A stretch of DNA of 26,683 bases, taken from the NCBI GenBank assembly GCA_022564935.1, contig JADFKM010000003.1:1-26683 (forward strand), written 5' to 3'. Below the pieces are notes generated by a model. The model was not told the origin of the DNA. It worked only from the letters and a program-made list of their open reading frames with translations, and made no database searches. This stretch comes from Candidatus Dadabacteria bacterium (lineage in GTDB: Bacteria; Desulfobacterota_D; UBA1144; Nemesobacterales; JADFKM01). The translations under genes and the position numbers were made by a program. Shown in pieces: positions 7,925 through 18,198 of the stretch; position 1 is the first letter of the stretch, and every line of letters begins with the position of its first letter.

Positions 7925-9307
7925 TCAGACTGGGTTCTTAGCTTTGGATTGAACGGCTTTTGTAAAACCGATAAGGAATGCAAAATATAGAGCATTTGCA
8001 GGAATATGGAGGTTAAAATCGGCAAGGCTATGGGTAAGTAAGGCGACAATTCCAGATAGGGCGCCAAGGCTCAGGAAAAATCTAAAATAGTCTTCCCTTT
8101 GGCAAAGCTGTTTTAGAAATCTTAATGAGGAAAATAAAAACAGGGCAAGTGCGGTAATAATTGAGAAAAAGCCCAATAGGCCGGTTTCTACTATGAGTTG
8201 CAGGTAATCGTTATGCGCATATTTATATACGACAGCTTTCTCCATGGCTTTTTTGTATAGTGGATAAATATAGCTAAAGTTTCCAAAGCCTGTTCCAAAA
8301 AGAGGAAAATCTTTGATAATGCTTAACATATCTTTCCAGACCAGGGTTCTTACAGGAGCTTCTTGCTCTATCTTTAGGAATCTTTCAAATACAGGATAGA
8401 GTCCGATCCAGAAGGCATAGAGAATTGCTGTGGCTAAGACAAATAGGATTATCCAAGATTTTTTTGCGTCCCCCCTATGAAAACCGGTGTAAGCGAGATA
8501 GAAGAAGACGAGTGATAAGAATGTACTAAAAATACCCATTCTAGACCCGGAAAGAAAAAGGGCTAGAAGTATCATAGAAAGGAGAAAAAGAAGAAGGATT
8601 TGTTTTTGAAAATTATCCGATGAAATTAAATTTTTAAGAAAGGATTTTTGTTTACTACCATTCCACTCGCCCAGTGACAGCACGTAGCCCAAGCCGAGGG
8701 GAAAAGTCATTTCAAGGAACCCAGCAAAGTGATTGTGATTTACAAAAGTTCCTGTGGAAAGAGCATCCGTAGCCGCATATTGGTAAATTCCATAAGTCGC
8801 TTCTAAAAGTGATACTCCGAGAATCGGTATAAGGAGAAGCTTAATTTTTCGGACGGTTGTAAAATGTCTTGCTATTACAAATCCAAATGCAACATATGAA
8901 AGTAAAAGCAGGGTTTCTATCCATGTGGCATGAGGATAAAGACTTATCGTGAACATACTGCTTTTACTGTTAAATCCGATGCTATCGAGCACAGCTTGGT
9001 TTTTCTTCCAAATGGCAAGGCTGTTTTGTGATACCCCACCCAGCATAAAATCTGGAAGGGGAATAATTTGAAATAAACATATAAATACGAATATAAGTAG
9101 CGGCAAGAAATTTTTTGCATTCAGGTTTAAATCGCTTTTGCTATACATTGACCAGAAGAGCCATAATATAAAAAGTATAAAAGCCTGAAGTTGTAAAACA
9201 TATCGTGCCCATGGCTCTACACTTCCTACTGGGAGAGGCGAAAAAATCAGTAGTGAAAAAGTAAATAGATAAATAAAATTTCTTAATGCGGTTCCGGATG
9301 TGATCAT
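7925..9307 (-). CDS. O-antigen ligase/polymerase family membrane protein (Wzy_C), second copy
   Basis: This 460-residue polytopic protein has about eleven hydrophobic segments. Its large periplasmic loop carries FPLFGTGFGNF, then YKYAHNDYLQLIVETGLLG, the Wzy_C signature with the conserved His. The HNDYLQ form resembles the ligase/exopolysaccharide subgroup more than the HNLYV form of the gene at 759, but polymerase and ligase cannot be separated by eye. A GAAAG site lies just before the ATG at 9305-9307. It is the most downstream - strand gene, converges with the epimerase gene, and is separated from the export operon by about 540 bp of decayed sequence, so it may have its own promoter. Confidence 0.85.
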   Translation of the reverse strand: MITSGTALRNFIYLFTFSLLIFSPLPVGSVEPWARYVLQLQAFILFILWLFWSMYSKSDLNLNAKNFLPLLIFVFICLFQIIPLPDFMLGGVSQNSLAIWKKNQAVLDSIGFNSKSSMFTISLYPHATWIETLLLLSYVAFGFVIARHFTTVRKIKLLLIPILGVSLLEATYGIYQYAATDALSTGTFVNHNHFAGFLEMTFPLGLGYVLSLGEWNGSKQKSFLKNLISSDNFQKQILLLFLLSMILLALFLSGSRMGIFSTFLSLVFFYLAYTGFHRGDAKKSWIILFVLATAILYAFWIGLYPVFERFLKIEQEAPVRTLVWKDMLSIIKDFPLFGTGFGNFSYIYPLYKKAMEKAVVYKYAHNDYLQLIVETGLLGFFSIITALALFLFSSLRFLKQLCQREDYFRFFLSLGALSGIVALLTHSLADFNLHIPANALYFAFLIGFTKAVQSKAKNPV

Positions 9308-10230: not shown

Positions 10231-10752
10231 CTAGACCAATTCCACGACCCTAATATCTACTTCAACTGAAACAGCGCGCTGGATGAAATCTATGGAGAGT
10301 ATGAGCCTGCATGCGCCCCTTTTTTCTAATATCCTCCCTCTTGTCCCTTGAAGAGGACCGTTTACAACCATAACCTCTTTTCCTTCACAAAAATAAGGGT
10401 ACGGGTCGTATTTTAATTTACTGCTCAAAAGTTCCCTTATTGCCTCGATCTGCTGAGCAGGAACCGGAACAGGGGTTCCATTTATACCGAGAATCCTGAC
10501 AATTCCAGGGGTGTTTAGAACGCTCCATCTATCCTGCAGATGGATATTAGTAAACAAGTACCCCGGGAAAAGAGGGACTTGTATCTCCTTTTTTCTATCT
10601 TTCCACTGGCTTATCACTTCTCTGAGGGGAAGAAACGTCTCTTTGCCCTTTTCACAAAGAGCCGCATTTGCCGCCTTTTCATGTCTTGATGCTGTATAGA
10701 CGGCATACCACTCTTTGTCAATACTATTAGAAAGAGAGCTTAAGTTATCCAT
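10231..10752 (-). CDS. Specialised NusG paralogue (NGN + KOW), UpxY/RfaH-like antiterminator
   Basis: This 173-residue protein has an NGN domain starting WYAVYTASRHEKAANAAL (residue 15 on), PLFPGYLF and VRILGINGTP, then a KOW domain (EVMVVNGPLQGTRGRIL, about residues 125-142) and a final Leu/Val-rich strand. It follows the arrangement of the transcription antitermination protein NusG, but it sits inside a polysaccharide operon, as UpxY in Bacteroides and LoaP/RfaH-like proteins do. It would bind RNA polymerase and improve completion of this long operon. Its start overlaps the J-domain gene by 8 bp, so the two are translationally coupled. I saw no clear ops element in the 5' leader. Housekeeping NusG is unlikely because the secE-nusG-rplK context is absent. 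Confidence 0.85.
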   Translation of the reverse strand: MDNLSSLSNSIDKEWYAVYTASRHEKAANAALCEKGKETFLPLREVISQWKDRKKEIQVPLFPGYLFTNIHLQDRWSVLNTPGIVRILGINGTPVPVPAQQIEAIRELLSSKLKYDPYPYFCEGKEVMVVNGPLQGTRGRILEKRGACRLILSIDFIQRAVSVEVDIRVVELV

Positions 10753-12673
10753 CTTCTACCCTTGTTTCTTCAACCCTGTAATTTATCTCTTTGATATGCC
10801 ACTTGTTATCCCGCCACGAGAGAATCCAGCTTATTGTTCCATTTGAACTTTTGACCCTCTGTTCACTTTTCCTTTTAAAAGTAACGACGAAATCCCCATC
10901 TATAGTTGCGCTATCTTCTTTAAAGTCGGTCTTTTTTATTTGAACGTCGTACCCCATGATTTCTAAAGAAGAAAAATTATTCCTGTAAGTGGTGAGAGTT
11001 TTTGATATTACGACTCCATTTTCTTTCGCATCGGATTCAAAAAATGAGATGAATCTATTCATATCCCTATCTTTGTAGGCCGATACGTATTCTGAAACAA
11101 AGGAAGATAAAGACGCTTTATCGGGATAAGAAGAAGGGGATTTAAGCCCCTGCTCAGAAACTTTATTAAGAAAGAGCTCACGTTCATAAATCGCTACGCT
11201 TCCCCCGCTCTCTCCTTTTCCCTTCCTTTGAAGTTTGGGCTTCAGAACATTTCCTTTCGCCACAATGGATTTTTTATCAGCACTTAGTTTAGGAAATTTT
11301 TGGCTGCTGCCCGCTTTTGCTTCTGTTATCTTATCTATTATTTCTTTCTCTAGTTGTGCCTTTTTAACTTCCTTTCCGATACCTTCATCTTGAGTGGTAT
11401 GCGGAATATCCAAAACATCACCGGTGTTTAAACGGTCGTTTCTAAGATCATTTACCTCTTTTAGGTCTTTTACCGATGTATCAAACCCCCTTGCTATCAC
11501 CTCCCTGTTATCTCCCCTTGTTACAACATATTTATTCCCCTTTATTTCCTGTTTTTCTCTCGGCATAACGACAGGTTTTTCTTCTTTTCTGATTATCTCC
11601 TTTTCTGCAATAGGCTCTTTTTTGCTTCCTACACTAAGTAAAGCCGCTTCTCCCTCTGCTTCAGATTCAGGGGGGAGCGGCTTTTGTATTACAAACATTG
11701 ACGACATTTCTCCAATTGCTTGAGCTCCGCTCTTTATATTTTCCTCCCTTTCCTTTTGAGTTTGAGTCTTCTCTTCAGCCGTTTCTGTGAAGGTAGATTT
11801 TTGCTCTGTCTGTCCATGTATGGGGGTTTCACTGCCACCGCTTACACCCATTTCCATAGCTGCTAATCCTTCAGTCCCAGAAAGTTCCCTGAACTTTGTC
11901 TCTTCTGAAAAAACACTCTCGGTGCTATATTTGGCTGGAAGAGAAGTTGCATCTTCTCGCTCCGGCTCGAGTTTCTGAAGTTTAAAAGGGTCATTTCCTT
12001 TTTGAGCCGGTGTGGAGGTAGTTTTCCACGGCAGGGCTGTGCTCTCATCACTTCTGTCTGCAATCACCCCCGTTTCTTTATAAGAGCGAAATACCAGGCC
12101 CGAACCCCAGAGGTATAGAATAAGGAAAAAAACAACAAGAGCGGGTGAGATCGAATAGATCAGTTTCTTGGGGACTGCTATCGTCCAAAAGTCCTTAACC
12201 ACAACGGGCAACTGTGGAGGACGCTTTGCTTCGTATTCGCTTCTTTTTAATGGATTTCCCAATACGCTATAAGCTTCATTTAACTTTTTTGTAATCTCTA
12301 GTCCCAACTCACCCGCTTTATCCGGGTGTTTGGTTTTCATATGAAGTAGCCAAGCTTTTCGAATCTCTTCGGCTGATGCAGAGGGCAGGACACCTAAGAT
12401 TTTGTAGTAATCTTCTTCCGGCTCTTCCGGGGCAAGGTAAGAAAGGACAGCCTTTGCCTGCTTGACAATAAACTGCTCGCTTACCATTTTATCACTTGCT
12501 ACTTTTTTTATCAGCTTGTAATTGGGGGAATACTCTCCCCTGGATATATCTTTAAGTAGAGAGTAAAAGTAGACTGTATCCGTCGAAAATCCCCTTATGA
12601 GCTCTCTTATATCTTTTGACCTTACGAGCTCCTCAATTACTTTTTCGAATTCCTTTCTATCTACTTTGAGCAT
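10745..12673 (-). CDS. J-domain / transmembrane / LysM / NTF2-like fusion protein
   Basis: The product is 642 residues from the ATG at 12671-12673 (a TTG 15 bases earlier is also in frame). Residues 1-80 are helical and unrecognised. Residues 86-151 form a J domain: EEDYYKILGV, the catalytic-type HPD tripeptide at 116-118, and KKLNEAYSVLGNP. A single membrane helix follows at about 170-192. A long low-complexity, charged linker (about 200-375) leads to a LysM-like repeat at 381-425 (KYVVTRGDN, then LNTGDVLDIP). The C-terminal 520-635 is an NTF2/SnoaL-like fold resembling domains attached to peptidoglycan proteins. Predicted topology puts the J domain in the cytoplasm and LysM in the periplasm. 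The J domain would recruit DnaK and the LysM would hold peptidoglycan. The gene lies between TPR and NusG-like genes and overlaps both, so a role in assembling or regulating the export complex is inferred. Confidence 0.8.
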   Translation of the reverse strand: MLKVDRKEFEKVIEELVRSKDIRELIRGFSTDTVYFYSLLKDISRGEYSPNYKLIKKVASDKMVSEQFIVKQAKAVLSYLAPEEPEEDYYKILGVLPSASAEEIRKAWLLHMKTKHPDKAGELGLEITKKLNEAYSVLGNPLKRSEYEAKRPPQLPVVVKDFWTIAVPKKLIYSISPALVVFFLILYLWGSGLVFRSYKETGVIADRSDESTALPWKTTSTPAQKGNDPFKLQKLEPEREDATSLPAKYSTESVFSEETKFRELSGTEGLAAMEMGVSGGSETPIHGQTEQKSTFTETAEEKTQTQKEREENIKSGAQAIGEMSSMFVIQKPLPPESEAEGEAALLSVGSKKEPIAEKEIIRKEEKPVVMPREKQEIKGNKYVVTRGDNREVIARGFDTSVKDLKEVNDLRNDRLNTGDVLDIPHTTQDEGIGKEVKKAQLEKEIIDKITEAKAGSSQKFPKLSADKKSIVAKGNVLKPKLQRKGKGESGGSVAIYERELFLNKVSEQGLKSPSSYPDKASLSSFVSEYVSAYKDRDMNRFISFFESDAKENGVVISKTLTTYRNNFSSLEIMGYDVQIKKTDFKEDSATIDGDFVVTFKRKSEQRVKSSNGTISWILSWRDNKWHIKEINYRVEETRVEDG

Positions 12674-13904
12674 TTGCGTTGGTCTCAACCTTAAACAGTT
12701 TTACGTCATCCACCCACACGGTGCCAGAAATAAATCTATCAAGCCTGGTGCTTCTATAGCGCCGTAGCCTTGCCACGACGGAGTTGCAATCAGAAGGGGT
12801 ATGGAACGCGAGCCGAACCGTTTTCCACTCATTTGTTCCCGTAAGGGGCTCTGATGATTTTCTCATCCCACCTTTAGGGTAGCAGGAGACTTCCCAGCTT
12901 ATGCCGTTTCTAGTTGTAATGCCGCGGGTAGCAATTTCGGAAGTAAAGAGATAATCAGAGCGAGGATGGATAGGAATTACCTGTGATACGTGATAAAAAT
13001 CAACGTTGTGCTTGCCGTCAAATGTTATCCTTAATGAGCGATCTCCCTGAAACCTCTCTCTCCTGTCAAGCTCGATGCCCACTCCCTTTGCTTTCCCCAT
13101 CCTCCAATCAAAACCCCTGCCTAAGGGCTCGTTCTCAAAACCGCCGTTCCAGACAATCGAATCATCATCTCTCTCCCTAAACATCTCGCGCCAGATCGAA
13201 AAAGCCTCCAACCCCCTATCTTTCCTTATAAGAAAATCCACGTAATGAAGGGCAGCGGCGTCCGAGACCACCCCCCTCTTCTTCATCCTTTCCCATACAG
13301 GAAAGGTCGCATCCAGTCTGTCTTTTGAAATTAAATAACCAAGATAACTTGGAAGAATCCCATCAGTTACCACCTTACCCAGAATCAGCTCCGGATCATC
13401 GATAAGCTGCCAAGAGATATCAAAAACCCTCCCCCTTCTTCCCGGGTCCGCTTTGGCAATCACTCTAAGACCCCGGATGGCTAGGGATGTATTTCCAAGC
13501 CTTAAAGCAAGGATAGAACCTTCCCAAACGTTGCCGATAGATGATGGAGCAAGGTCAAAAGCCCTATTAAGGGCAGCCTGAGCTCTTTGCTCATCGCCGT
13601 CTTCAATAAACATTTCTGCAAGACCCAGCCACGCCGGGGCAAGCTGAGGATTGTGGTAAAGAGAGTTAAAGTACGAAGCCTTAGCTTTATCCTCATCTCC
13701 TATCATGAGCATGTGGTAAACCCTTGCCAGACGAAAATTAAGCGCCGCATCTTTTGGATTTAAAACCAAGCTCCTTTCCATAGAGCCTACGTCCGTTTCC
13801 CTTAAGAGAAAGGCGGCAAGCCCAACCCTTGCGGTCTCCGCAACAAGAAAAATACTAAGTGCGAGGAAAACGAATCTTCTTCCTTTCCTTACCCAACTCA
13901 GCAC
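12657..13904 (-). CDS. Membrane-anchored TPR protein with C-terminal jelly-roll domain
   Basis: No family name fits the whole protein. From the GTG at 13902-13904 it has 415 residues: a basic N-terminus and one membrane helix (about 10-32), TPR-like helical repeats (about 50-155, e.g. AALNFRLARVYHML and APAWLGLAEMFIEDGD), more helical repeats to about 245, and then a beta-rich domain from about 252. The last begins NGGFENEPLGRGFDW and ends VWVDDVKLF, the pattern of CBM4/9-type galactose-binding folds. It may scaffold the export complex and touch the polysaccharide. ATG starts at 13925 and 13949 are also possible. Every candidate overlaps the end of the tyrosine-kinase gene by 50 bp or more, and none has a good ribosome site, so translation is probably coupled. 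The 3' end overlaps the J-domain gene. Confidence 0.75.
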   Translation of the reverse strand: MLSWVRKGRRFVFLALSIFLVAETARVGLAAFLLRETDVGSMERSLVLNPKDAALNFRLARVYHMLMIGDEDKAKASYFNSLYHNPQLAPAWLGLAEMFIEDGDEQRAQAALNRAFDLAPSSIGNVWEGSILALRLGNTSLAIRGLRVIAKADPGRRGRVFDISWQLIDDPELILGKVVTDGILPSYLGYLISKDRLDATFPVWERMKKRGVVSDAAALHYVDFLIRKDRGLEAFSIWREMFRERDDDSIVWNGGFENEPLGRGFDWRMGKAKGVGIELDRRERFQGDRSLRITFDGKHNVDFYHVSQVIPIHPRSDYLFTSEIATRGITTRNGISWEVSCYPKGGMRKSSEPLTGTNEWKTVRLAFHTPSDCNSVVARLRRYRSTRLDRFISGTVWVDDVKLFKVETNANAQSR

Positions 13905-16137
13905 CGGAGTAATAATAGTAGCCATAATGATATTTATACCGTCTTGCATCGACTCTATTTACAACAGCACCGACAATGCTTCCTCTTACCTTTGATATTG
14001 CCTCTATGCTACTTTGGAGCGCCCCTCTTTGAGTAATCCCGACGCTTGTTACGATCAGAACACCGTCTGCCAAACCGGATAGAAGCCGTGAATCGGCAAA
14101 GCCCATAATTGGAGCTGTATCGAGAAGTACATAGTCGTATTCTTGAGTAAGAACCTCCAGCAGCTCCCTAACTCTCTTACTGCCGAGGAGCTCAGCAGGG
14201 TTTGGCGGGATAGGGCCCGAGGGTATTATATCCAGACCATCTATTCCAGTTTGATGAATCACGCCCGGAAGCCCCATTTCCCCGGTTAGATAGGTGCTAA
14301 GGCCAAAGCGGTTTCCGTTATTTAAATAGATCGTATGCAGCCTTGGATTCCTAAGGTCCGCATCTATCAGAACCACCCTGTGTCCGGATTGGATCATCGA
14401 AAGAGCAAGATTTGACGCTGTAGTGGTTTTCCCTTCTGTGGGATGAGCGCTTGTTATCAGAATGGATTTCAGGGGAGAATCAGGAAATGAGTACATAATA
14501 GCGGTTCTTACAACTCTAAAAGCCTCTGCAATTGATGATTTCGGATTTAGGTAAACGGCTTTTTCAATGTCTGGCATCTCCTGTTCGCTGGCAAGCGGGA
14601 TAGCACCTAAGAATGGAAGAGCAAATTTCCTTTTAATCTCATCTTCGTCTTTTATCGTGGTGTCAAAATGCTCAAAGGCAAATGCCAGAAAAACTCCGCC
14701 CATAAGCCCCATTAAGGTTGCAAGGAGAAGGTTAAGCTTTATGTTTGGCTTATACGGTACGAGTGGTGTCTCGGCGTAATCTACAACCTGTATATTAGTT
14801 GCTCTGATTCCCGAAGTCACCTCGGTTTCTTTAAGCCTTTGAAGCAGGTTCTGATATATGGATTTATTTGTCTCTACTTCTCGGTCAAGAATCTTATACT
14901 GTACCGTCTGCTCATTTAGTTCCATAACACGCCTTTTCTGCTCCTGAGCTCTTTGACTTAAAAGATTGTCCTTCCTAAGGGCCGTTTGGTAGTCTTTCCT
15001 TATGCTTTTTGCAATTCCATCTATACGCTCATTTATGTCTTTTTTAATTCTTCCAAGCTGAGCAGCGAGCTGCTTTACATCCGGGTAGTCTTCATCGAAT
15101 ATTACTGTCAGATTGTCATACTGGGACTTAAGCTTCGTATATCCTTCATTTAGCGCCTGTATCGAGAGGTCACTTATCACCTGGGGTAGATACGCATAAT
15201 CGCCGGCCTGCACCTCTCTATAGAGCGCTTCTCTTGCCAGCCTTTCCGTCTCCGCTTCGGTTGAAGCTCTGTTCAGTTCGGCAAGCAGCTTGTATGTAAG
15301 GTTAAAGTTTTCGTCTAAGGAAACTATATCCTTATCTTTAGCAAACTTATTAAGTTCTTCCTCCGCCCTTTCAAGTTTTGCCTTAACCTGCTGAAGCTGT
15401 TTTTCCAAAAAGTTCCTGGCAGCCTTTGTCGCCTCGACCTTTCTGTCTAAAACCCACTCAATGTACTTATCAACAAGGGTATTCGCTACAGTGGCAGAAA
15501 GCTCGGGGTCTGTGCTGTCGAAGATAACCTCAACCAGCCTCGATTTTCTATCGGGCTTTATTTTTACACCGTCTAAGAATGAGTCTACTAACTTCTTCTC
15601 TTTGATAAGCTCTTTTTTTTCTGCTCCTTCTGGGTCTGTGCTGTTATTTAATGAAAGAATCCTAGCGATCGGATTTTTCATAAAAGACATAAGACCAAGT
15701 TCGCCATCCTGGTGTGCCGCAAATGCGGGATGAGTATCGAGCTGGAGTGTTGTTACAACCTCTTTAGCCAGTGACCTGCTTTTTAGGAGCTTAAACTGCG
15801 TTTCGTAGAACTCTCTTTGCCGTGGTTCTACCGCCAACACCTCTTCAAAAGAAATTATTTTGGGGGTTTCAGGGGATATTTCTATCGTAGCTTCGGCCCT
15901 GTATATTTTGTCCATCAGCAAGGACGCAATAGTCACGGTTACGATCGCTATAACGAGTGAGGATATCACAATCCACTTCCTCCTAAGGATAACTTCCACA
16001 TAATCCTTAAGGCTAAGCTCTTCTTCCCCATAGCCCTCATAATCCCTTCGCACCTCAGCGGCTAAGAGGCGATCTTCTCTCTCTTTTAATTCATCTCTTT
16101 TATATTCAGTAAGATCTTTTTTATTTTCGTCTTCCAC
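13855..16137 (-). CDS. Wzc-type polysaccharide co-polymerase with fused BY-kinase
   Basis: This 760-residue protein has the full Wzc order. A Wzz domain starts after a charged cytoplasmic N-terminus, with TM1 at about 55-74. A long periplasmic coiled coil (about 230-450) is followed by the Pro-rich LVPYKPN and TM2 (about 468-488). The cytoplasmic kinase has SAHPTEGKTTT (P-loop, 563-573), VVLIDADLR (Walker A', 588-595) and YVLLDTAPI (Walker B, 669-677). The tail holds seven tyrosines at 734-743, the autophosphorylation cluster. Such proteins set chain length and couple polymerisation to export through Wza. The start is GTG, with GGGGG about 11 bases upstream; 28 bp separate it from the wza-like gene. 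The tyrosine tail also encodes the N-terminus of the next gene. Confidence 0.9.
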   Translation of the reverse strand: MEDENKKDLTEYKRDELKEREDRLLAAEVRRDYEGYGEEELSLKDYVEVILRRKWIVISSLVIAIVTVTIASLLMDKIYRAEATIEISPETPKIISFEEVLAVEPRQREFYETQFKLLKSRSLAKEVVTTLQLDTHPAFAAHQDGELGLMSFMKNPIARILSLNNSTDPEGAEKKELIKEKKLVDSFLDGVKIKPDRKSRLVEVIFDSTDPELSATVANTLVDKYIEWVLDRKVEATKAARNFLEKQLQQVKAKLERAEEELNKFAKDKDIVSLDENFNLTYKLLAELNRASTEAETERLAREALYREVQAGDYAYLPQVISDLSIQALNEGYTKLKSQYDNLTVIFDEDYPDVKQLAAQLGRIKKDINERIDGIAKSIRKDYQTALRKDNLLSQRAQEQKRRVMELNEQTVQYKILDREVETNKSIYQNLLQRLKETEVTSGIRATNIQVVDYAETPLVPYKPNIKLNLLLATLMGLMGGVFLAFAFEHFDTTIKDEDEIKRKFALPFLGAIPLASEQEMPDIEKAVYLNPKSSIAEAFRVVRTAIMYSFPDSPLKSILITSAHPTEGKTTTASNLALSMIQSGHRVVLIDADLRNPRLHTIYLNNGNRFGLSTYLTGEMGLPGVIHQTGIDGLDIIPSGPIPPNPAELLGSKRVRELLEVLTQEYDYVLLDTAPIMGFADSRLLSGLADGVLIVTSVGITQRGALQSSIEAISKVRGSIVGAVVNRVDARRYKYHYGYYYYSGAELGKERKKIRFPRT

Positions 16138-16165: not shown

Positions 16166-17188
16166 TTACTCGCGGTAACGCTCAGGAGGGTCGTAGCCCA
16201 CTCCAATTAGGCCTAATAGGAAATTGAGACGAAGCCCGTAGAGAATCCTTTTAGCCGTACTTGCCCCAACCACTAAAGCATCCCTATCTTTGACCATGGG
16301 GTCTTCAGCCTCCCCTTTTCGAATCTTTCCCAAATCCACTTGTAAAACCTGTCTATTTCCATCGTCCAGCAAACGAATCAACATCACATTACCGATATCG
16401 GAATAGGTTGTGGTTCCACCTGCCATGGCAATACTTTGACTCACCGTAGTCTTGCCCTCTTTGATTGAATAAGAACCGGGTTTTCTTACCGCACCCTCCA
16501 CAAAAACTACACCCGCTTCAGGGACATAGATAACATCTCCTGGTTTAAGCGTTAAATTTGCTTCGGCATCACCTTCTATACCCTTTATAAACAGCTCCTC
16601 AAGGTCTATTATGTAGGCCTGTCTTTTCCCGTTTTCCTCGCTCCTTGTAAGGTAAACAGTCATCCCGGCATCATCATCCAATCCCTTTGCCGCAGCAAGA
16701 GCGTCGAGAAGGGTTTGTCTGCCCAGAAGTTCATAACTTCCCGGCTCTCTTACATACCCAACTACCGATACAAGCTTGCTCAAGTGTTCCTTGACAAAGA
16801 TGCTTACATTGGAGTCTTTAATGTAGCGACGCTCTTTGAGGAGTCTTTCAATCTTCTCCTCCGCTTCCCTGGCTGTGAGGTCGGCCACACCAACACTGCC
16901 TAAAAGGGGGAGAGTTATCCGCCCCCTGGAGCTTACGCGCACCGTGCTTGTGAGCTTTTCAGATTCAAACACTTTTATCTCGAGCAAGTCGGCAGGACCT
17001 ATGAGATAATTTGCTGGGGATGCGGGAGAGAACCCCCCCTGGGATAGTAGCTTGGTATTGACCTGTTTAATTTCTTGGGAGGACTCGATCCTGTTTTGAT
17101 TAAGCAGAGAACCGCTAAATTGTTTTCTTCCCCCGCAGCTAACCGTAATAATGAATGTTACTACCAGGAGGTATATTGTTCTCCTCAT
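16166..17188 (-). CDS. Wza-type outer-membrane polysaccharide export lipoprotein
   Basis: The 340-residue protein has a lipoprotein-like signal ending TVSC at Cys18; the residue at -3 is Thr rather than Leu, so lipidation is likely but not certain. NYLIGPADLLEIKVF opens the polysaccharide export domain (60-135), and two SLBB domains follow (about 139-222 and 226-308; VVGYVREPGSYEL and VEGAVRKPGSYSI are the matching strands). A hydrophobic amphipathic segment at 314-331 could form the outer-membrane helix barrel. It would form the pore that works with the Wzc-type protein next to it. A GGGAG site lies about 12 bases before the ATG. The upstream 101-bp gap includes a perfect 12-bp palindrome. 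Confidence 0.9.
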   Translation of the reverse strand: MRRTIYLLVVTFIITVSCGGRKQFSGSLLNQNRIESSQEIKQVNTKLLSQGGFSPASPANYLIGPADLLEIKVFESEKLTSTVRVSSRGRITLPLLGSVGVADLTAREAEEKIERLLKERRYIKDSNVSIFVKEHLSKLVSVVGYVREPGSYELLGRQTLLDALAAAKGLDDDAGMTVYLTRSEENGKRQAYIIDLEELFIKGIEGDAEANLTLKPGDVIYVPEAGVVFVEGAVRKPGSYSIKEGKTTVSQSIAMAGGTTTYSDIGNVMLIRLLDDGNRQVLQVDLGKIRKGEAEDPMVKDRDALVVGASTAKRILYGLRLNFLLGLIGVGYDPPERYRE

Positions 17189-17289: not shown

Positions 17290-18168
17290 TTAACGCGTTA
17301 CAGGACTCACTACCCCGTCTTCTCCTTGGCTTAACGCTACAGGGATAGCAAAGGCAGCGGGTATAACTATAGCCCCTGCTGCGCCAAGAAAGGCTCCGAT
17401 TATCGGGGCGCCAGCTGCTGGCAAAAACGCTGCTAATAACTCACGATCCACGGGCTGAACGAGTAAAGTCGATCCACTAACGCCTACAACCTTTATGTCG
17501 GTATCCTCTGGGAGGCTAGCTTCATCAATCACCTCCAAGTCGTCATCGACTACTACTACATTTAGGACCTTACCTTCTACCTGTGCTGCCCCTTCAGGGT
17601 TTAAGACCGTATTAGCCATTCCAATCTTTCCTATTAACTCTTCCAAACCCACCGCCTCCTCTTCAATCGTAGCCTGCGTCAGTATTATTTTTTCTCCGGC
17701 ATTTATTTCGGTAAGACCACCCGACCTCACTGCTTTCAGCACGCCTTCACTAACCTCCACCAAAGTATCATTATCCCTTACCACGATTCTTCCTGAGGTT
17801 ATGGAGCTACTTGCCAGAACCACTTTAGGGGAGAAAATCTCCCCGTGCTTTGTTTTAAAAGAAACCCGTGCCTTTTCGGGCTTTAGTCTAAAATAGATGT
17901 TTCCTTCTTCGATTTGAAACAGAGTCTGTCCCACTTCATCAATAGCCTTGAGAACGGTACCTTTATCTGCTATCAACGTTCCTCCTGCTATTCTTATAAG
18001 GGCTTTATGGTCATAAGTAATTTTGTTGCCGGAGATCAGAGGATAGACCTTCGGGTGCGATGGTGATGAATAAACCACTACTTTTCCCAATATAGTAGAT
18101 GCTCCTAAAGGCTCGATGCCAAGGAAAAGAAATGCCAAAACAAAGAAAAGATGTGTATATATTCTCAT
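17290..18168 (-). CDS. Secreted FecR-like domain protein with glycine-zipper C-terminus
   Basis: The product is 292 residues from the ATG at 18166-18168, chosen because GGGGGG lies 5 bases upstream and a clean signal peptide follows (MRIYTHLFFVLAFLFLGIEP, cleavage near GAS). The next 140 residues are beta-rich with FecR-like features (repeated G-x-V/I strands, ISGNKITYDHKALIRI, VEVSEGVLKAV, INAGEKIILT). The C-terminal 40 residues are Gly/Ala-rich and hydrophobic (AAGAPIIGAFLGAAGAIVI), like a glycine zipper or membrane-insertion segment. FecR-domain proteins recur as first genes of exopolysaccharide operons, where they may sense or scaffold at the periplasmic face. It is the first long gene after the promoter at 18397-18425. 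Function is inferred from position. Confidence 0.7.
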   Translation of the reverse strand: MRIYTHLFFVLAFLFLGIEPLGASTILGKVVVYSSPSHPKVYPLISGNKITYDHKALIRIAGGTLIADKGTVLKAIDEVGQTLFQIEEGNIYFRLKPEKARVSFKTKHGEIFSPKVVLASSSITSGRIVVRDNDTLVEVSEGVLKAVRSGGLTEINAGEKIILTQATIEEEAVGLEELIGKIGMANTVLNPEGAAQVEGKVLNVVVVDDDLEVIDEASLPEDTDIKVVGVSGSTLLVQPVDRELLAAFLPAAGAPIIGAFLGAAGAIVIPAAFAIPVALSQGEDGVVSPVTR

Positions 18169-18198
18169 AATCCCCCCGATCAAATTTTTTATAAGTTG

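Follow-up and report, generated by a model that had tools for sequence, protein, structure and literature searches.

We describe a J-domain protein with a single membrane helix, encoded in an exopolysaccharide operon of a member of Candidatus Dadabacteria, whose core is conserved in wza/wzc operons of at least three phyla. That core is a J domain, a membrane helix, a long disordered linker and an NTF2-like domain, with a LysM domain as an optional extra, and the protein is a frequent, non-obligatory component of Wzc operons. The evidence for its domains and for its place in the operon is good. We see about an even chance that it acts as a class C co-chaperone anchored in the membrane, recruiting DnaK to an export complex of the Wzc type while its NTF2-like (and here LysM) part lies in the periplasm. 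The gene lies in a window of 26,683 nucleotides, which is the whole stretch of DNA that was analysed.

The reading frame running from 12673 to 10745 is open on the minus strand for 642 aa, whereas translation of the plus strand meets many stops, which places the gene on the minus strand. The start ATG is conserved, with ML or MI at the same alignment column in the relatives. The gene overlaps both the TPR gene upstream (12657-13949) and the UpxY gene downstream (10231-10752) by a few bases each. Overlaps of a few bases are common among genes that share one transcript. The gene and the regions of its product are as follows.

10745..12673, minus strand: gene of the J-TM-LysM-NTF2 protein, 642 aa; open frame, start codon in register with the relatives' starts, overlap with both neighbours.
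12419..12673, minus strand: N-terminal helical domain, residues 1-85; mean column identity 59% (15 sequences), pLDDT 85 when modelled alone.
12230..12412, minus strand: J domain, residues 88-148, with HPD at 116-118; Pfam DnaJ PF00226, E 2.1e-13, 50.6 bits (cut-off 27.8).
12107..12163, minus strand: the one membrane-spanning helix, at about residues 171-189; 19-residue hydropathy of 2.19 with a positive flank on the N-terminal side, model helix 169-190.
11402..11530, minus strand: LysM domain, residues 382-424; Pfam LysM PF01476, E 3e-8, 33.9 bits (cut-off 20.9).
10748..11137, minus strand: NTF2-like domain, residues 513-642; fold match Z 14-17, invariant aromatic residues (17 sequences).

The original prediction, made from the sequence, had the coordinates 10745-12673 right and gave no strand. 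It named a J domain with its HPD motif at residues 116-118, a membrane helix, a LysM at 381-425 and an NTF2-like C-terminal domain; the Pfam matches, the hydropathy and the fold comparison bear out all four, and the conserved N-terminal helical domain is the one part that it had overlooked. In the AlphaFold model, built with an alignment of 17 sequences, pLDDT is about 90 for the N-terminal domain, about 92 for the J domain and about 94 for the C-terminal domain, with disordered linkers in between. The N-terminal domain consists of four helices with no recognised fold, and comparison with the PDB gave weak matches only (VIA-align Z at most 5.8, for AerR; none from Foldseek with E under 0.9). 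An XRE-type DNA-binding domain, the impression that residues 1-85 give from sequence, was rejected in view of these four helices and weak structural matches.

The LysM is modelled with the beta-alpha-alpha-beta arrangement, its strands and helices lying at 381-422 with pLDDT of about 80-87. In the window copy it reads GDNREVIARGF, with DNRE at the position of the common DSLW motif; most relatives retain GDSLW. Because GDNRE replaces GDSLW, the window LysM may bind glycan more weakly or differently, to judge from these residues. For the C-terminal domain, VIA-align matches to NTF2-like entries reached Z 14-17 over about 111-137 residues, the best being 17.4 over 123 residues with an rmsd of 2.2. 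Pfam gave no match for this region of the window protein, the sequence of which is too diverged; among the relatives, the region matched DUF4440 in 5 of 17, and SnoaL_3 and SnoaL_4 scored above cut-off in L113.

The placement of the gene in an exopolysaccharide operon, also part of the original prediction, agrees with the profile matches of the neighbouring genes.

17290..18183, minus strand: conserved first operon gene; relatives have homologues in this position, a weak NfeD match alone in Pfam.
16166..17188, minus strand: Wza-type polysaccharide export protein; Poly_export E 2.6e-22, SLBB.
13855..16137, minus strand: Wzc-type chain-length protein with a tyrosine autokinase domain; TIGR01007 181 bits (cut-off 108), Wzz, GNVR.
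12657..13949, minus strand: TPR protein with a CBM_4_9-like C-terminal part; Pfam TPR, co-conserved, upstream of the J gene.
10231..10752, minus strand: UpxY/RfaH-like antiterminator, closing the core operon; NF033644 127.7 bits (cut-off 100).
7925..9307, minus strand: Wzy_C (O-antigen ligase/polymerase type) protein; Pfam Wzy_C E 1.4e-20.

The order on the minus strand is FecR-like, Wza, Wzc, TPR, J protein, UpxY, a small cupin gene and Wzy_C, where the first gene appears FecR-like by eye. The Wzc-type protein has a tyrosine-rich tail, as read from its translation. The CBM_4_9 match was obtained in a relative of the TPR protein, at E 2e-4, below the cut-off. This TPR/CBM protein adjoins Wzc in J-bearing and J-less operons of three phyla and appears always to accompany this Wzc subtype; we know of no name for it. 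The UpxY/RfaH-like antiterminator closes its own polysaccharide operon, a position kept in several relatives. CpsB/CapC phosphatase genes are found in operons of the second phylum introduced below (L098:14064-14789, L102:3990-4817, L113:7733-8533), and none was seen among the window operon genes searched. Models of EpsE/EpsF/EpsG and XrtA-type export proteins match the window Wza and Wzc, below their equivalog cut-offs; unlike the window operon, the matched models come without a J-domain protein, and the pair of TPR/CBM and J genes is extra.

A single-sequence scan of genome contigs found no named relatives, and an alignment-based scan found ten. Within the home phylum, a profile of the NTF2-like domain matched in 16 of 57 genomes and 12 of 22 genera, spread over five families of one order; the remaining families, with their small genomes, gave no match. 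The alignment of Dadabacterial members holds 17 sequences, some incomplete, across which the N-terminal and C-terminal domains are well kept. Pfam recognises the J domain in all but one of them, the exception being a C-terminal fragment, and HPD is retained in every Dadabacterial relative that includes the J domain. The LysM is present in 14 of the 17, in two copies in L036. In the aligned row L027 the C-terminal half is unrelated and the genome is broken at the J gene, so this row is probably an assembly error. The genome concerned, G008 (L028:9375-10784, L027), carries the tandem repeat KEEKEKTKEVARKREEGQVEKKSPQESVKEVVV in the C-terminal half, which is probably why the gene is divided between contigs.

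The operon of FecR-like (often), Wza, Wzc, TPR/CBM, J and UpxY (often) genes is found in the window and at up to eight other Dadabacterial loci, one of which (L029) has an additional gene between Wzc and TPR/CBM. Of the 17 TPR/CBM genes that adjoin wzc in Dadabacterial genomes, eight have Wzy_C or UpxY behind them and not the J gene, and export therefore does not generally depend on the J protein. The J gene stands apart in several genomes of family f2 and adjoins a carbamoyltransferase gene in G001 and its close relatives. Counted by genome, TPR/CBM and the NTF2-like domain occur together in 12 and alone in 3 and 4 (p 9e-7), a looser association than in the second phylum.

That second phylum, whose named members are Deltaproteobacteria, was reached through a distant relative, L054. 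The NTF2-like domain was found there in 16 of 297 genomes at the cut-off used, mostly in proteins with a J domain, a membrane helix, a linker and the NTF2-like domain. A third phylum yielded one member among nine genomes examined, with the same domain order and operon. Wzc, TPR/CBM and J protein follow one another at about 12 second-phylum loci and at the one third-phylum locus. The 297 genomes contain 18 long TPR/CBM genes (in 17 genomes), and 16 of the 18 neighbour a J-TM gene; in the one non-adjacent case among these, L105, the J-TM gene lies just beyond Wzc. The J gene of G074:C37 encodes the N-terminal domain, J domain and helix only (191 aa), and those of G155 and G278 run off the contig ends. 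TPR/CBM and the NTF2-like domain occur together in 14 of these genomes and alone in 3 and 2 (Fisher p 2e-19, a value that overstates independence because the genomes are related). A plasmid search with a second-phylum relative gave no match.

Over 19 operons, the Wzc distances are tracked by those of the J part (r 0.82), of the NTF2-like part (r 0.89) and of TPR/CBM (r 0.94), and none of 5000 permutations was as high for the J and NTF2 parts; the correlations speak for inheritance as a unit, not for physical contact. A chance fusion or an assembly artefact was considered and rejected, since relatives occur across 5 families of the order as well as in two further phyla, and the conservation of the J-TM-NTF2 core in wza/wzc operons of three phyla excludes chance fusion. 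The proposal that the same domain order would recur beside wza and wzc in several phyla thus held for the core; it failed for the LysM, which was found only in Dadabacterial members and in none of the relatives examined from the second and third phyla, and the gene is not an obligatory one. The LysM was accordingly rejected as the key part in general, being unseen outside the Dadabacterial group and missing from L031 and L040, and wall anchoring via the LysM, which had been suggested, does not stand as a general property.

Each of the relatives whose J half is complete has a single hydrophobic helix, in most cases with a positive flank on the J side. In L102, L111 and L114, small stand-alone NTF2-like proteins are encoded directly 3' of the J gene (L102:3499-3993, L111:5705-6169, L114:6431-7378, with two in tandem in L114), and an apparent N-terminal signal sequence is clear in three of the four. 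Because most of these stand-alone forms carry apparent signal sequences, and a LysM is present, the C-terminal half is expected outside the cytoplasm. The predicted topology, with the J and N-terminal domains inside and the NTF2-like (and LysM) half outside, is reasonably supported; a J domain inside and a LysM outside had been proposed at the outset. The stretch from the helix to the NTF2-like domain is 111-321 residues long, counting the LysM where present, and should therefore suffice to reach the wall.

The NTF2-like domain also occurs with other partners. In L116:5656-7716 and L108:9682-11745 its fusion partner is an ExeA-like AAA ATPase, which replaces the J domain, so the J domain is not the sole cytoplasmic partner of this NTF2-like domain, and the cytoplasmic module looks exchangeable. 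The fusion of L116 lies near a Wza-like gene. L117:3-5213 encodes a protein of 1736 aa that combines WD40-type repeats, Ig-like domains and a SPOR domain and ends in the same NTF2-like domain. The movement of the NTF2-like module among J domains, AAA ATPases and secreted forms points to a shared periplasmic binding partner.

The closest described system that we compared is DjlA, a class C protein of the E. coli Rcs capsule pathway. DjlA is a membrane-bound J protein that loosens the contact between IgaA and RcsD and induces capsule synthesis, an effect that needs DnaK and GrpE and of which the H233Q mutant is incapable (PMC11709261). It resembles the window protein in its one membrane helix, its cytoplasmic HPD J domain and its DnaK-mediated link to polysaccharide, a link that for the window protein we infer (PMC11709261). 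In contrast, DjlA has its helix at the N-terminus, a TerB-like domain and a C-terminal J domain (PMC11709261), without a large periplasmic part, whereas in the window protein the J domain precedes the helix and no TerB match was found. DjlB and DjlC of E. coli likewise have an N-terminal J domain with the membrane anchor after it; they differ in that they are tail-anchored, and hence lack periplasmic domains, and in having HscC as their partner (PMC8215388). In Nostoc, DnaK1-DnaJ3 is needed for normal secreted polysaccharide (PMC9239167), so that this pair, compared by description only, is similar in tying an Hsp70 and a J protein to (hormogonium) polysaccharide and different in being described with type IV pilus motors (PMC9239167). 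For the outer half, the NTF2-like domain of Pgp2 is reported to bind peptidoglycan fragments and that of Bd1075 targets the protein along the wall (PMC8938487). The LD-carboxypeptidases Csd6, Pgp2 and Bd1075 share with the window protein a periplasmic C-terminal NTF2-like domain (fold match to Bd1075 Z 14.7, rmsd 1.6, 112 residues), with no sequence-level match between the window domain and any of the three; however, they have a catalytic LD-carboxypeptidase domain, for which the window protein has no Pfam match.

Under the co-chaperone reading, a one-helix class C J protein of the inner membrane would serve a Wza/Wzc/Wzy-type exopolysaccharide machine. Its N-terminal helical and J domains would lie in the cytoplasm beside the Wzc autokinase domain, and its long disordered linker would extend into the periplasm, where the NTF2-like (here also LysM) domain would hold the protein at the site of export by binding to wall, polymer or a periplasmic partner. 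DnaK, brought there and triggered to hydrolyse ATP by the J domain, would remodel a client within the complex (oligomers of Wzc, TPR/CBM protein or Wzy) and so help to assemble, reset or regulate export; the model is DjlA with its use of DnaK on IgaA-RcsD. DnaK recruitment, the client and the ligands of the outer domains are points that we infer. Tentatively, this widespread Wzc subtype might possess a built-in Hsp70 recruiter, such that ATP-driven pulling by DnaK, set off by a transmembrane J protein with outer domains that hold wall or polymer, resets Wzc between export rounds.

How far DnaK is involved turns on the J domain itself. The basic DnaK-binding face of E. coli DnaJ comprises R22, K26, R27, K48 and K51 (PMC8215388). 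In the window J domain the R22 and K48 equivalents are kept (R105 and K129), the K26 and R27 equivalents are the residues L109 and L110, where R and K stand in the ordinary DnaJ of this genome, and the K51 equivalent is N132, an N also in that DnaJ. HPD is lost in one operon-borne relative (locus L109) and in two copies elsewhere (loci L101 and L110) and is intact in most other relatives from outside the Dadabacteria. The genome has two full-length DnaK genes (G000:C39:2036-3823 and G000:C101:6648-8438), one of which adjoins an ordinary dnaJ (L141). A role for DnaK is thus favoured by the HPD kept in nearly all other relatives and by the two DnaK genes, and disfavoured by the loss of the K26/R27 equivalents and by the relatives without HPD. 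The points against it are the ones expected of a structural adaptor, in which the J and helical domains would scaffold Wzc or a cytoplasmic partner without DnaK and the protein would link the inner-membrane complex to wall or polymer: the K26/R27 equivalents are lost in Dadabacterial J domains, those three relatives have no HPD, and an ExeA-like ATPase stands in place of the J domain in L116 and L108. Nevertheless, HPD is intact in all J-bearing Dadabacterial relatives and in most others despite strong divergence elsewhere, and R105 and K129 are kept; we regard such an adaptor as rather unlikely.

The overlaps of the J gene with the TPR/CBM and UpxY genes suggest coupled translation, and together with the co-inheritance of J protein and Wzc they would fit a biogenesis factor, in which J and DnaK fold or insert nascent Wzc and TPR/CBM from the same transcript, the periplasmic part binds peptides in the manner of a chaperone, and the protein has no role once the complex is built. 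However, a periplasmic LysM or repeated NTF2-like domains would be superfluous for co-translational folding, and many Wzc operons have no J gene, which leaves this explanation quite improbable in our estimation. Smaller still is the credence we give to a regulator whose NTF2/LysM part senses wall or polymer and whose transmembrane signal steers J and DnaK on the Wzc phosphorylation cycle or on the UpxY antiterminator. The J gene does lie between the autokinase and antiterminator genes, and the DjlA precedent targets signalling proteins (PMC11709261), but no sensor-specific feature was found in the J protein, and the gene is kept in many second-phylum loci with no UpxY gene in reach.

Each single domain of the protein, membrane J proteins and chaperone control of capsule are already known. 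In the open-access literature, as far as the titles, abstract openings and individual passages retrieved extend, and with the domain-partner survey of Barriot et al. 2020 outside this scope, no description of a J protein in a Wzc operon was seen and no paper joining a J domain with a LysM was found. With its ingredients known and no description of it as part of a Wzc operon found there, we count as new the J-TM-NTF2 protein as part of Wzc operons, a transmembrane J-domain protein dedicated to polysaccharide. To our knowledge, Wzc-type export has been studied mainly in species without a J-domain gene in the operon. The conserved association of a transmembrane J protein with wzc in three phyla suggests that polysaccharide export includes a chaperone step.
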